The notes under the pieces: model-generated | Told to the model about the DNA's origin: nothing | Databases searched by the model: none | The model's input: the letters and a program-made list of their open reading frames with translations, nothing else | Made by a program: the position numbers and the translations under genes | DNA from: Mangrovimonas yunxiaonensis | GTDB lineage: Bacteria > Bacteroidota > Bacteroidia > Flavobacteriales > Flavobacteriaceae | Direction: 5' to 3' | DNA: 64,000 nucleotides | NCBI RefSeq assembly: GCF_000733475.1 | Contig: NZ_JPFK01000005.1 | Coordinates: 124,001 to 188,000, forward strand | Shown here: piece by piece, positions 3,186 through 53,607 of the stretch | Layout of the letters: every line of letters begins with the position of its first letter | Numbering within the stretch: the stretch's first letter is position 1

Positions 3186-4475
3186 ATGACAGATAAAAAA
3201 ATTCTATCCCCGTTTCAAAAGTTTGTTAAGATCGAAAGTGTTGGTGGCCTGTTGCTATTTATGGCAACCGTTTTGGCACTTGTTTGGTCCAATTCGCCTT
3301 TTTCAGAAAGTTATACAGCCCTTTGGGAGTACAACCTAGGCATTACCACCGAAGATTTCGAACTAAGTAAACCCCTTATTTTATGGATAAACGATGGGCT
3401 AATGGCCATCTTTTTCTTTTTAATCGGTCTGGAAATTAAACGTGAATTTCTTATCGGAGAGCTTAATTCACCAAAAAAAATAGGCTTCCCGCTAGTAGGT
3501 GCTTTTGGGGGCATGCTTGTGCCTGTACTGTGTTACTTTTTGTTAAATAACAACCCCGAAACCCTAAAAGGTTGGGGGATCCCTATGGCTACAGACATTG
3601 CTTTCTCGTTGGCCATACTTACCACATTAGGCAAGCGCATTCCTTTAAGTCTAAAGGTTTTTTTAACGGCTTTTGCCATTGTAGACGACCTTGGTGCCGT
3701 ACTGGTTATTGCCATATTTTATAGCAGCGCAATACAGTTTAGCCTATTAGGCATGGCCCTTTTGTTACTGGCCTTGTTATATTTCTTATCGTACAGAGGG
3801 TATTATTCAAAATTTTTAACCATAAGCTTAGGGATTGTCGTTTGGGTGCTTTTCTTAAAAGCCGGCATACACCCAACTTTAGCTGGGGTTTTACTGGCTT
3901 TTTCTGTACCTATTAGGCAGCGAATAGACACACCAAAGTTTATAGACAACCTTGTTGCCATAACCAATAACATTAAACAAGCCTCGGTATTAAACACCCC
4001 TATTCTATCAAAAGAACAAATTCAGGAAATAGACGATCTGGAAGATTGGACATGCAAATACCAATCCCCATTACAGAAAATAGAACACAACCTTCACGAT
4101 TGGGTAGCCTACTTTATTATTCCTGTATTTGCATTTGCCAATGCTGGAGTGGTTATTAACAGCTCGGTTCCCTTAGAGTTTAATTTGGTTACGGCCATCG
4201 TGGTTAGTTTGGTCATAGGGAAAAGCATCGGAATCACATCATTTGTGCTTTTCGCCAAAAAAATAAAGCTTATTACCATTCCTTCGGAAATCTCTACCTG
4301 GCACATTCTGGGCGTTTCGTTCTTGGCTGGTATAGGCTTTACCATGTCTATTTTTATAGCTGGCTTGGCATTTTCTGGAGACACTGCCAATATCGACTCG
4401 GCAAAGGTAGGCATTTTAATAGGGTCGTTGATAGCGGCCATTATTGGATACCTTATTTTAAAGTTTAAACGATAA
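3186..4475 (+). CDS. nhaA: Na+/H+ antiporter NhaA
   Basis: NhaA exchanges sodium for protons across the inner membrane and protects against salt and alkali. The 429-residue protein is strongly hydrophobic with about twelve membrane segments. The two key ion-binding motifs are visible: A-T-D-I-A-F (equivalent of Asp133 in E. coli) and V-D-D-L-G-A (Asp163/164 pair). A hydrophilic loop between about residues 245 and 310 is usual for this subfamily. I chose the ATG at 3186 because upstream residues are hydrophilic and lie over the GNAT stop and the promoter-like box. It sits inside a heme gene cluster, which is an unexpected neighbourhood. Confidence 0.95.
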   Translation: MTDKKILSPFQKFVKIESVGGLLLFMATVLALVWSNSPFSESYTALWEYNLGITTEDFELSKPLILWINDGLMAIFFFLIGLEIKREFLIGELNSPKKIGFPLVGAFGGMLVPVLCYFLLNNNPETLKGWGIPMATDIAFSLAILTTLGKRIPLSLKVFLTAFAIVDDLGAVLVIAIFYSSAIQFSLLGMALLLLALLYFLSYRGYYSKFLTISLGIVVWVLFLKAGIHPTLAGVLLAFSVPIRQRIDTPKFIDNLVAITNNIKQASVLNTPILSKEQIQEIDDLEDWTCKYQSPLQKIEHNLHDWVAYFIIPVFAFANAGVVINSSVPLEFNLVTAIVVSLVIGKSIGITSFVLFAKKIKLITIPSEISTWHILGVSFLAGIGFTMSIFIAGLAFSGDTANIDSAKVGILIGSLIAAIIGYLILKFKR

Positions 4476-50775: not shown

Positions 50776-50783
50776 TATTTTTG
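50776..50783 (+). promoter_or_regulatory. -7 box of the PaaE-like reductase gene
   Basis: TATTTTTG fits the consensus and ends 15 bases before the ATG at 50799. A longer frame from 50781 would start inside this box and is rejected. Confidence 0.55.
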
Positions 50784-50798
50784 CTTAAAACTAATTTT

Positions 50799-51854
50799 AT
50801 GTCTCAGTTCCACACACTCACTATAAAAAACATTCAACGGGTAACCGATAAAGCTGTAACCATCAGCTTTTTAATTCCCGACGCCCTAAAAGAGCCGTTT
50901 TCGTTTCAAGCCGGACAATACATTACATTAAAAACAACCATTAACGGCCATGAGGTAAGGCGCGATTACTCGTTATGTACCTCACCTAAAAGTGGCGAGA
51001 TTAAAGTCGCCGTTAAAGAAGTTCAGGATGGCACCTTCTCAGCTTATGCCAACAACACCCTAAAGGCTGGAGACACTCTAGAAGTCGCATCGCCTAAAGG
51101 GCACTTTGTTTTTGAACCGAACGACAAAAAAACAAAAAACATCGCTCTTTTTGCTGCCGGAAGCGGTATTACTCCCATTTTAAGCATTATTAAATGTGCT
51201 CTTGAAGAAGAAGTATACAGCAAGATTATTTTGGTTTACGGCAACAAAACCACACAAGACACCATGTTTTTGGAGGAACTGCTTGAACTGCGACGCCAAT
51301 ATAAAGACCGGTTTTCCATACAATTTGTATTTAGCCAAGCCGATGAAGACGATGCCATGTTTGGCCGCATTGAAACAAGCACGGTTAATTACGTTGTAAA
51401 AAACAAATACAAGCACATCGAGGTCGATGCCTTTTATTTATGTGGCCCAGAAGCCATGATCCATACGGTAAAAGACGTGCTAACAGACCACGGCATTGCC
51501 AAAGAACGCATTTTCTTCGAGCTTTTTAAAGCCGCAAAACCCGCAAACATTGACGATACTGCCATTGGAAACGGCCAAACAAAAATCACGATAATTGTTG
51601 ATGATGAGGAAACCACCTTCGAAATGTCGCAAAAACAATCCATTCTTGAAGCGGCACTCGATGAAGATTTAGACGCCCCATATTCTTGCCAAGGCGGTAT
51701 TTGCAGCAGCTGTTTGGCCAGAATAAAAGAAGGCGAAGCCACCATGCGCCAAAACAATATTTTAACCGAAAACGAAGTTGCAGAAGGACTGATTTTAACT
51801 TGTCAAGCGCACCCTACCACACCAACGGTTATTGTGGATTATGATGATATTTAA
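50799..51854 (+). CDS. PaaE-like NAD(P)H-dependent ferredoxin reductase with C-terminal 2Fe-2S domain
   Basis: The 351-residue flavoprotein has an FAD-binding motif R-R-D-Y-S-L, a nucleotide-binding A-A-G-S-G-I-T-P and a plant-type 2Fe-2S domain with C-Q-G-G-I-C-S-S-C plus a later Cys. This is the PaaE/PaaK-type reductase that feeds electrons to ring-1,2-phenylacetyl-CoA epoxidase, but no paaABCD genes are in the window, so it may serve another oxygenase or desaturase. The ATG at 50799 is chosen by the promoter box. Confidence 0.9.
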   Translation: MSQFHTLTIKNIQRVTDKAVTISFLIPDALKEPFSFQAGQYITLKTTINGHEVRRDYSLCTSPKSGEIKVAVKEVQDGTFSAYANNTLKAGDTLEVASPKGHFVFEPNDKKTKNIALFAAGSGITPILSIIKCALEEEVYSKIILVYGNKTTQDTMFLEELLELRRQYKDRFSIQFVFSQADEDDAMFGRIETSTVNYVVKNKYKHIEVDAFYLCGPEAMIHTVKDVLTDHGIAKERIFFELFKAAKPANIDDTAIGNGQTKITIIVDDEETTFEMSQKQSILEAALDEDLDAPYSCQGGICSSCLARIKEGEATMRQNNILTENEVAEGLILTCQAHPTTPTVIVDYDDI

Positions 51855-51920: not shown

Positions 51921-52104
51921 CGTCATTGCGAATGAAGTATAACGGAATGAAGCAATCTTTTTGAAGACGAAGATGAAGATGAAAACTAATGAGATTATTT
52001 CGGCTAAAACCTTATAATAACGAGGCGTCACTGCGAGGACGTAGGACGTGGCAGTCTGCCCATTCCATTTAACAGATTACTTCGGCCAAAGCCTCGTAAT
52101 GACG
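51921..52104. repeat. MITE-like unit, copy A, with 11-bp terminal inverted repeats
   Basis: The unit begins CGTCATTGCGA (51921-51931) and ends TCGTAATGACG (52094-52104); the ends are inverted repeats matching at 10 of 11 bases. Inside are an outer ATTGC/GCAAT stem, a purine-rich GAAGATGAAGAT stretch, and a 3' half with an ACTGC/GCAGT stem. About 165 bases recur as copy B at 52429-52595. No transposase or obvious target-site duplication is seen. Confidence 0.7.
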
Positions 52105-52404
52105 TTAGTCAAAATAGAACAACCATCCATCAGATAAATCGTTCCATTCAGGATTTTCTTTATTTATCAACGCTTCTTTACGCTTTCTATTCCCTGATTT
52201 TAATTGCTTTTCTCTAGCTATGGCTTGATTTATATCGCTAAATTCTTCATAATAAACTAGTTTATCACAATTATACCTGTAGGTAAACCCTTTTCTTATC
52301 TTGGCTTTATGTTCATACATCCGTTTTAATAAGTTGGATGTCACCCCAATATAAATAACTGTATTGTTTTTGTTGGTCAACAAGTAAACATATGATTTTC
52401 GCAT
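52105..52404 (-). CDS. Single-domain GIY-YIG nuclease family protein
   Basis: The 99-residue protein is almost only a GIY-YIG domain: V-Y-L-L near residue 5, Y-I-G-V-T near residue 18, the catalytic-type Arg in L-L-K-R, and R-E-K-Q-L-K-S near residue 67 with the metal-site Glu. Such small proteins occur in many bacteria with poorly known roles. The frame can be opened as far back as 52542 through repeat copy B, but ATG 52404 begins the conserved domain. The stop codon touches the terminal inverted repeat of copy A. Confidence 0.9.
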   Translation of the reverse strand: MRKSYVYLLTNKNNTVIYIGVTSNLLKRMYEHKAKIRKGFTYRYNCDKLVYYEEFSDINQAIAREKQLKSGNRKRKEALINKENPEWNDLSDGWLFYFD

Positions 52405-52428
52405 GCTTAAAAATACACATTTTCTTAT

Positions 52429-52595
52429 CGTCATTGCGAAGCAACTTATTGCTGAAGCAATCTCTTTGAAAACGAAACCGAAGATGAAGATGAAAACCAA
52501 TAAGATTATTTCGGCTAAAACCTTATAATAACGAGGCGTCACTGCGAGGACGTAGGACGTGGCAGTCTGCCTATTTCATTTAACAGATTACTTCG
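52429..52595. repeat. MITE-like unit, copy B, truncated
   Basis: About 165 bases closely matching copy A in the same orientation: start CGTCATTGCGA, purine-rich middle, a run of 63 near-identical bases (about 52508-52571), and end AACAGATTACTTCG. Its first 37 bases form a REP-like nested palindrome: ATTGC, GA, AGCAA, CTTA, TTGCT, GA, AGCAAT. The far terminal repeat present in copy A is missing, and the unit runs into the GT9 stop codon. Confidence 0.75.
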
Positions 52596-53607
52596 TTACA
52601 ATAACAGACTGTATTTTCTCCACAACCGTCTCAACCGGAACACTCCCAGCGGCTTGGCCGTAATGTTCAGGGAATGCATTCCCGTAAACAGAGGTTGGTA
52701 TTAACGGATATTGGTTCCTATCGGCCAACAAACAGTAATCTTCTGGCTGGTTAAATGGCGCAAAACCGGCATATGGATGCGTGACCCCCCAAATGGTTAT
52801 GGTTTTTACACCCAACATAGCCGCCAAATGGGCGTTGCCAGAATCCATAGACAACATCACATCCAAATTGGAAATCACATCCAGTTCCTCCTCCAAGGGT
52901 AATTTTCCCGCAAGATTAACCAGATTTTTATCGCCACACCAAGAGGCCAACGTTTCGGCTTCGGCTTTGCCGCCAAAAAGAATGATTTTATATGTTTTAG
53001 AAAGTGTTTCAACCACTTGCCGCATCATATCCAACGGATATATTTTACTCTCGTGGGCCGCAAATGGCGCCACACCAATCCATTTTAAATGGTCTTGCCC
53101 AAGCAATTGCCTCGACGCTTCTGAAAGTTGCCTGCGCTCGGGAAACTCAGGGTTCGATATATCAACAGGAAAACCCAACGCCTCAAACACATCGGCATAA
53201 CGCTGGTGGGTGGTTTTTAATTGTTTGAAAGCCTTACCAGCTACCAATGCTTTTTTTTCGGCACGGCCTTTATCAATCTGTGCCGTTGGTATTCCAACCA
53301 AAAAGCGTTTCAAGATTTTTGACCGCAACACATTATGCAAATCTGCCATGGCATTAATTTGTAGAGCTTTAAGTTCTTTAGATAGTTTCCAAAGTCCTAA
53401 AATACCTTTGTGCTTTCCTTTTACATCGGCTTTATAAACAGACACATTAGGAATACCTTCAAACATAGGCGCAAAAAAACCGCGCGTAAGCACGGTTAGT
53501 TTTACTTGTGGGTATTGTTTTGCAAAAGCTCTTAAAACGGGAACTGTCATGGCTACATCGCCCATGGCTGAGAGACGAATGACAAGTATGTGTTTTGGTG
53601 TTGGCAT
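52588..53607 (-). CDS. Glycosyltransferase family 9 (heptosyltransferase-like)
   Basis: The 339-residue protein has the ADP-heptose transferase pattern: I-R-L-S-A-M-G-D-V-A-M-T near residue 8, and the C-terminal D-S-G-N-A-H-L-A-A near residue 255. It would add a heptose or related sugar to lipopolysaccharide core. The stop codon and last Lys codon lie in sequence shared with the repeat copy next to it, so the 3' end may have been changed by the repeat. The DUF4254 gene is 37 bases upstream. Confidence 0.93.
   Translation of the reverse strand: MPTPKHILVIRLSAMGDVAMTVPVLRAFAKQYPQVKLTVLTRGFFAPMFEGIPNVSVYKADVKGKHKGILGLWKLSKELKALQINAMADLHNVLRSKILKRFLVGIPTAQIDKGRAEKKALVAGKAFKQLKTTHQRYADVFEALGFPVDISNPEFPERRQLSEASRQLLGQDHLKWIGVAPFAAHESKIYPLDMMRQVVETLSKTYKIILFGGKAEAETLASWCGDKNLVNLAGKLPLEEELDVISNLDVMLSMDSGNAHLAAMLGVKTITIWGVTHPYAGFAPFNQPEDYCLLADRNQYPLIPTSVYGNAFPEHYGQAAGSVPVETVVEKIQSVIVTK

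Follow-up and report, generated by a model that had tools for sequence, protein, structure and literature searches.

A gene for a small GIY-YIG nuclease in Mangrovimonas yunxiaonensis lies between two direct repeats of about 165 bp, with its stop codon touching one of two inverted repeat ends, and this raises the question of whether nuclease and repeats belong together in the way of REP elements and their RAYT enzymes. Such a pairing had been proposed in a first-pass annotation of the window, i.e., the whole stretch of 64,000 nucleotides analysed here, in which the repeats were called MITE/REP-like.

The nuclease gene occupies the interval separating a ferredoxin-reductase-like gene (50781-51854, plus strand) from a glycosyltransferase-like gene (52588-53607, minus strand), both names being our own reading of the translations. 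Pfam analysis matched residues 3-76 of the protein to GIY-YIG (PF01541) with an E-value of 2.1e-18, and GIY-YIG and T5orf172 were the only Pfam matches. The mechanical list of open reading frames contained a longer call with a GTG start at 52542 (145 aa); judged from the sequence, an ATG at 52402-52404 fits as the putative start and agrees with the homologues. The stop codon at 52105-52107 abuts the left inverted end. The features of the site, in window coordinates, are as follows:

51921-52104, plus strand: direct-repeat copy A together with its right-hand end, composed of two inverted pairs of hairpins
51921-51957, plus strand: CGTC-tagged arm, stem ATTGC/GCAAT (pattern match)
51993-52022, minus strand: decayed arm, CGTT head, stem ATTAT/ATAAT (read from sequence), inverted relative to the arm at 51921-51957
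52026-52056, plus strand: CGTC-tagged arm, stem ACTGC/GCAGT (read from sequence)
52075-52104, minus strand: CGTC-tagged arm, stem ATTAC/GTAAT, head abutting the nuclease stop codon
52105-52404, minus strand: GIY-YIG nuclease gene, 99 aa (Pfam and homologue-consistent start)
52429-52595, plus strand: direct-repeat copy B, with 88% identity to copy A across 164 bases
52429-52462, plus strand: CGTC-tagged arm, stem ATTGC/GCAAT, head facing the nuclease start codon
52504-52533, minus strand: decayed arm, second copy, CGTT head (read from sequence)
52537-52567, plus strand: CGTC-tagged arm, second copy, stem ACTGC/GCAGT (read from sequence)
52586-52599, minus strand: truncated arm, overlapping the glycosyltransferase-like gene at its final codons and stop

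The identity of the direct repeats was determined between 51921-52084 and 52429-52595, with small gaps; an ungapped core of 122 bases was 95% identical. The architecture given in the first-pass annotation, with the 99-codon gene between the repeats, the inverted pair TCGTAATGACG / CGTCATTGCGA around it and copy A bounded by the same inverted ends, was recovered as described. Allowing one mismatch, CGTCATTGCGA was found six times in the window compared with 0.66 matches expected, a number reached by 0 of 100 shuffles, and five of the six matches lie at the nuclease site. The eight arms have the head CGTC in five cases and CGTT in two, while one is truncated; their tails are CTT, CTC or CTG and their stems are interrupted. 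The nearest heads face the gene, and a dimer pair is present on each side. Folding returned the CGTC head plus hairpin as the best structure for 52075-52104 (z = −1.58) and for 52429-52462 (z = −2.46, with 3 of 200 shuffles as good), and a different best fold for the other two of the four arms folded, namely 51921-51957 (z = −2.14), where the best single-strand fold differs from the ATTGC/GCAAT stem, and 52026-52056 (z = −1.66).

A search of the 2.67-Mb genome carrying the window (G000) returned only two long and five short matches to the 165-bp unit, implying that it is not a dispersed MITE; both long copies are those of the window site, and the MITE part of the earlier description was ruled out. 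The bare 11-mer CGTCATTGCGA was equally ruled out as a genome-wide repeat, with 38 matches at up to one mismatch versus 47 for the backwards control. In contrast, the longer arm pattern GTCATTGCGA-gap-GAAGCAATC (TGCGA-type) occurred seven times and its backwards control not at all. CTGAA-type arms were found eight times, with controls at 0. It is the CGTC hairpin arm, belonging to a known REP superfamily, that is dispersed, and the 165-bp units of the window are composites. Four more nuclease homologues are encoded in the same genome. GTCATTCCGCACTACGATGCGGAATCC-type arms border one of them and GTCATGCTGAACTTGTTTCAGCATC-type arms another two, of which one has an in-frame stop; the fourth is strongly decayed and has no clear arm beside it. 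Outside the window, several CGTC-type arms or partial arm matches were observed in two islands, C9:123332-132805 (L049) and C2:425541-437914 (L044), the latter including a decayed GIY-YIG gene at C2:431321.

CGTC-tagged REPs were described by Di Nocera et al. in 2013 (PMC3733652). In the portion of that paper available to us, the head is given as CGTC, TGTC or CCTC, the stem as nearly always starting with AT and the tails as mostly fitting CCA, with most copies arranged as HH dimers. The repeats are reported from five phyla including Bacteroidetes; named cases are Neisseria dRS3, Rickettsia RPE-4 and RPE-6, Sinorhizobium meliloti and Azospirillum lipoferum, and Caulobacter crescentus is counted as CGTC-positive. 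In the same portion, these REPs are said to "apparently lack a dedicated transposase", the authors reporting no association with a transposase gene; GIY-YIG is not mentioned in the main text of the paper. The window arms resemble CGTC-tagged REPs in the unpaired CGTC head (five of eight), the AT-starting stems (ATTGC, ATTAC) and the dispersed copies, but differ from them in their interrupted stems and their tails. The stem of 8-9 bp with a loop of 4-5 nt, a feature of CGTC-tagged REPs, is present in S. meliloti (locus L260). A further difference from the published picture, in the window and in its relatives, is the nuclease gene between or beside the arms.

No description of a GIY-YIG/REP pairing was found among the titles and abstracts listed, preprints and most subscription journals being outside the scope, and within these bounds the association is undescribed, as the first-pass annotation had supposed. 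In the available portions of three papers citing the 2013 work (PMC12306157, PMC6006769 and PMC5896051), CGTC appears only in the reference lists, and the titles among the matches listed for the bare motif GTCATTGCGA look unrelated. For Moraxella, RayT and a GIY-YIG gene are treated as separate accessory genes without a link in the portion available of PMC9465073.

The likeness to RAYT systems lies in the organisation of the locus. In REPtrons of RAYT/TnpA-REP enzymes with GTAG-tagged REPs, enzyme and repeat co-vary (PMC8266576, available in part), and the window gene is, as there, flanked by hairpins of its own repeat family. RAYTs, however, are HUH enzymes with a catalytic tyrosine and their repeats have a GTAG head, whereas the window protein is a GIY-YIG protein and window-type repeats have a GTC head. 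Membership of the RAYT family was ruled out by domain content (no HUH domain; GIY-YIG and T5orf172 only) and by the GTC head. The best reading is that the nuclease/CGTC-REP pair is analogous, but unrelated, to RAYTs. GIY-YIG enzymes act by hydrolysis of DNA, and a role as transposases is not known for them.

Conservation analysis of 130 armed proteins revealed Y7 (99%), Y18 (100%), R28 (98%), H32 (98%) and E65 (100%), which we take to be the GIY-YIG active-site residues of the window nuclease. A structure model built from three sequences had a mean pLDDT of 80 and a pTM of 0.71. In a Foldseek search with this model, UPF0213 was nearest at E = 3.6e-4, the sole match below 0.001, and the branched-DNA nuclease Slx1 was next-best at E = 0.02 and above; the nearest solved structure was BH0048 (1zg2), of the UPF0213/YhbQ type. 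Small UPF0213/YhbQ and COG2827 proteins are single-domain GIY-YIG proteins of similar length, and the window protein presumably carries the COG2827 label itself. In the available portions of PMC1839093 and PMC7017083, proteins of this type are discussed as repair or Slx1-like proteins, and no repeat partner is given there. Slx1 shares the GIY-YIG fold with the window protein but differs in having a zinc-finger domain and in acting with Slx4 (PMC7017083, available in part). Phage carriage was rejected, the window protein having no match in 50,697 phage records at E = 1e-5.

Comparison of the window site in four genomes of the genus showed gene and arms in G000 and G025, while the nuclease gene was absent in G060 (gap of 59 bp) and G061 (gap of 23 bp). 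The gene in the same place without repeats, which the first-pass annotation had named as a possible refutation, was not seen in these four genomes. One GTCATTTC-type sequence at the end of the glycosyltransferase gene of G060 may be a decayed arm of another class. Among 32 loci examined, with the gap measurable in 21 including the window, only G000 and G025 had the nuclease gene beside the glycosyltransferase-like neighbour. The two nuclease proteins are 90% identical, and dN/dS was 0.019 over 93 codons, an approximate value with dS saturated at 2.64; on these figures, selection has maintained the gene.

For the linkage analysis, one genome per species was scanned, and the best 80 of 536 confirmed relatives were chosen by protein similarity, ignoring repeats. 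An unbiased scan of all 64 three-base heads, counting hairpins with 5-bp stems that point outward on both sides of the gene, placed GTC first with 44 of 78 genes from this best 80 of 536, the next head reaching 14; outward GTC hairpins on both sides occurred in 0 of 133 distant control windows. A repeat of the scan in either direction discriminated weakly, the high-scoring set giving 30 of 44 for GTC and 28 for the next head. Under a strict arm rule (GTC-A head, 5-bp stem, within 300 bp), which also admits some chance hairpins and was applied identically to the controls, arms on both sides were found at 49 of the best 80 of 536 loci versus 2 of 163 other ORFs of these loci, and arms on any side at 69 of 80 versus 46 of 163. 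Linkage above chance, for which the first-pass annotation had proposed a test, is evident from the both-side counts.

By NCBI phylum, and again within the best 80 of 536, both-side arms were present at 30 of 50 loci of Bacteroidota and 19 of 30 loci of other or unplaced origin, among them Chloroflexota (4/4), Pseudomonadota (3/4), Verrucomicrobiota (2/2) and single loci of Actinomycetota, Nitrospirota, Omnitrophota and several candidate phyla; no strict arms were found in Bacillota (0/3) or Acidobacteriota (0/1). Judged by the nearest arms, the commonest layout in these best 80 of 536 was GTC-hairpin, gene, hairpin-GAC (26 loci), and the layout of the window, with the nearest heads facing the gene, was seen in eight. 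The stems in most armed loci are ATTGC, ATTAC and similar, with the variants ACTGC, ACCCC and GCCCC. When 100 loci were scanned on the plus strand, CCA was the commonest tail, accounting for 16 of 69 hairpins that bore one of the twelve commonest tails, and dimers occur in the window and in many flanks of relatives. A separate observation concerns Ningiella ruwaisensis (L119, gene 4001-4270), where GTCATCGTGG heads were present on both sides, eight of them downstream within 260 bp.

Sixty genomes of the window's family were drawn evenly, and 43 of them had a match to the nuclease family. The 45 high-scoring genes examined had strict arms on both sides in 27 cases and on any side in 34; the remaining 11 had none, one of these being the mis-registered locus L141, which was scored as unarmed through a coordinate error. 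At least six genes of at least 80 bits were not included (G006, G009, G035, G041 twice and G045), so a genome may hold an unseen family member. Of 43 low-scoring relatives, six had arms on both sides and 21 on any side, and as a group they showed no GTC excess in the head scan (9 of 40, with a median head at 8). Since 22 of these 43 have no arm and the group has no GTC excess, the wider proposition that all GIY-YIG genes are paired in this way was rejected.

Plasmids yielded 33 records with a relative of the window protein. Twelve of these loci were examined, and ten had GTC-A hairpins on both sides under the strict rule; at one plasmid locus (L260) the counted downstream arm is weak because the real arm has one extra base. 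A Novosphingobium plasmid (L266) carried GTC-G hairpins on both sides, and no convincing arms were found on a plasmid of Rhizobium tumorigenes (L263). The nuclease/REP pair was found in A. lipoferum, S. meliloti and Neisseria, which are among the CGTC-REP taxa named in the portion available of PMC3733652.

For a comparison of hairpin and enzyme, arms were sorted into classes (TGCGA, TTCC, CTGAA, TTCGAGT and others) by their first hairpin bases; the classes were set after inspection of the flanking heads, with GTCA as the only head sought. The nuclease tree was a quick LG+G4 estimate from 170 short proteins, with L141 and L148 left out, and 42 of 172 genes without an arm class were not counted. 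On this tree, 25 class changes were required for 129 labelled genes of 170, compared with a mean of 68.7 and a minimum of 60 after shuffling. The result was the same in kind for the window's family alone (9 vs 35.7, n = 56), for the high-scoring genes of that family (5 vs 17.4, n = 35) and for the best 80 of 536 loci (16 vs 26.2, n = 73), and in each of the four sets 0 of 1000 shuffles were as low as observed. Host ancestry alone does not explain this matching, because single genomes carry several nuclease/arm pairs: G000 (TGCGA, TTCC, CTGAA), G041 (TTCC, TGCGA), and G054 and G059 (CTGAA, TTCC, TTCGAGT).

The matching extends to co-occurrence within genomes, for which the CTGAA and TGCGA clades were defined as contiguous blocks of the tree. 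CTGAA-type arms were present in 20 of the 60 family genomes, with 0 control matches; they occurred in all 10 genomes carrying a CTGAA-clade nuclease, compared with 10 of the other 50 (p = 2.5e-6). For TGCGA-type arms, present in 22 of 60, the corresponding values were 9 of 10 and 13 of 50 (p = 2.6e-4), whereas mismatched combinations of clade and arm gave p = 1.0 and 0.07. Testing TGCGA-type arms against any high-scoring gene gave a weaker association than the clade-matched test (15 of 26 vs 7 of 34, p = 0.006). Two CTGAA-labelled genes, L158 (G049) and L216 (G025), fall elsewhere on the tree and were not counted; their inclusion changes the CTGAA values to 11 of 12 vs 9 of 48, G049 being without a CTGAA-type arm. 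Within 1 kb of the matching gene lie 35 of the 84 CTGAA-type arms (expected 0.06) and 15 of the 36 TGCGA-type arms (expected 0.03) of the nuclease-bearing genomes. Conversely, all 11 CTGAA-clade genes and 7 of 11 TGCGA-clade genes have a matching arm at this distance, the other four TGCGA-clade genes being without a pattern-matched arm within 1 kb.

Arms were also found in genomes without a nuclease-family match, namely 28 TGCGA-type arms in G014, seven of this type in G034 and four in G052, which suggests that arms outlive the gene, arrive without it or spread otherwise. For G014, the enzyme may have been lost or be missing from the assembly, or the REPs may have spread by other means. Many repeats unlinked to GIY-YIG genes, the other outcome named beforehand as a refutation, were not what was observed: linkage is present, though a nuclease of the matching clade is absent from 13 of the 22 family genomes in which TGCGA-type arms occur.

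Sites without the gene were found in other relatives as well as in G060 and G061; empty sites were among the checks suggested in the first-pass annotation. Among 11 Sphingobium plasmid records with both neighbours, the element was present in seven. TomTYG64, without the element, has one two-headed hairpin (GTC-hairpin-GAC) at the exact spot and TomTYG74, also without it, an imperfect one, and in TomTYG72 and TomTYG65 neither element nor two-headed hairpin was found at the site. Sinorhizobium K101 lacks the gene and has a two-headed hairpin with a CTC head at the site of the element in S. meliloti Ak57 (L260). In A. lipoferum 4B, the gene and two complete dimers stand between sufB and sufC, and neither gene nor REPs were found there in three aligned relatives. 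No target-site duplication was seen by eye at the compared sites, where flanks have diverged. The two-headed hairpins of gene-less relatives are compatible with insertion or with deletion. As a common unit the two-headed hairpin was rejected: a plus-strand scan of 100 loci found only four, three of which belong to a different, tandem repeat in L086, and we read two-headed hairpins as rare relics. The L086 repeat itself, at about 3636-3720, is a tandem palindrome GGTCAGACACTGTCTGACC unlike REP arms. At the Ak57 locus, a partial and a full nuclease element, similarly flanked, follow one another in tandem, an arrangement that recalls the direct repeats of the window.

Linkage and cognate matching of nuclease and repeat are well supported by these observations, and the REP/RAYT-like pairing proposed beforehand for the nuclease and its inverted ends is upheld by linkage, clade matching and empty sites. 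That the enzyme acts on the repeats, by recognition and cleavage, is a strong inference made without an assay; mobilisation of the repeats by the nuclease is inferred without direct data. We consider it probable that the gene and its flanking hairpins constitute one REP/enzyme pair and that a large group of small single-domain GIY-YIG nucleases provides the cognate enzymes of CGTC-tagged REPs, each clade recognising its own hairpin, with the reservation that recognition, cleavage and mobilisation are inferred. With somewhat less assurance, we lean towards the broader reading that CGTC-tagged REPs do have dedicated enzymes, namely these nucleases, which form a second, independently evolved REP-mobilising class in many phyla, in which a hydrolytic, structure-selective nuclease instead of an HUH transposase co-evolves with its own hairpins and spreads them.

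A possible course of events can be outlined. The cognate hairpin would consist of an unpaired GTC head and a stem usually starting with AT; extruded as a hairpin or cruciform, it would be bound by the nuclease through head and stem and nicked at the GTC head or close to it. The repeat could then be copied or moved as the arms are repaired or rejoined, and a nuclease gene lying between arms would be carried along. Gene-less dimers and single arms would represent non-autonomous copies.

The main rival of a REP/enzyme pair is homing, whereby the gene would be a parasite of REPs that are made and spread otherwise, its nuclease cutting the hairpins and repair copying the gene in. GIY-YIG homing enzymes are well known, and the inverted pair of nearest arms around the gene in 26 of the best 80 of 536 loci conforms with this explanation, as do the two-headed hairpins at gene-less sites of Sphingobium TomTYG64 and TomTYG74 (imperfect) and Sinorhizobium K101 and the existence of genomes with arms but no gene. 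However, cognate arm classes are found mainly in company with the matching clade, which would be expected if the arms were products of the enzyme; the protein consists of one 99-aa domain with no separate DNA-binding domain; and in the three aligned Azospirillum relatives the site is without REPs and without the gene. We therefore regard homing as possible but unlikely.

Two further explanations dispense with a specific partnership. If the proteins were UvrC-like host repair nucleases and the REPs terminators or passive neighbours, the purifying selection on the window gene would be accounted for, and three COG2827 genes of C. crescentus are indeed discussed as repair endonucleases, one having an SOS box (PMC1839093, available in part). 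Not predicted on these grounds, however, are the patchy presence with several copies and broken copies in one genome, the occurrence of gene and arms in some congeners and their absence in others, and the matching of arm type to nuclease clade, and a host repair role as the whole explanation appears very unlikely. Passive accumulation, with repeat-rich gaps collecting small orphan genes, could draw on the 46 of 163 control ORFs that have an arm on at least one side, but it is hardly credible in view of both-side arms at 2 of 163 controls vs 49 of the best 80 of 536 loci and of an arm class that matches the nuclease clade.

CGTC-tagged REPs are widespread, and what moves them is left open in the portion available of PMC3733652. 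With the REP/enzyme pair as the preferred reading, the nuclease family is a strong candidate for the enzyme, so far missing, by which this widespread class of bacterial repeats is spread, and the clade-by-clade match makes the question of the mover testable with cognate versus non-cognate hairpins. If true, a large family of small nucleases, most of them currently without a label or treated as repair proteins, would acquire a function, and there would be a second instance of co-evolution between an enzyme and a genomic hairpin family.

Some low-scoring subclades in the window's family have arm classes of their own. The subclade with YYVYILKCSD-TYYTG (L162, L217-L226) carries the class GTC-ACTTCGAGT / GTC-AGTTCGAGT in nine labelled genes, and A-x-x-CTGAGC arms were observed in seven genes of a neighbouring subclade. 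On plasmid p1 of Planktothrix agardhii (L268), the nuclease element lies between a gene for an MmeI-type restriction enzyme and the DISARM gene drmA.
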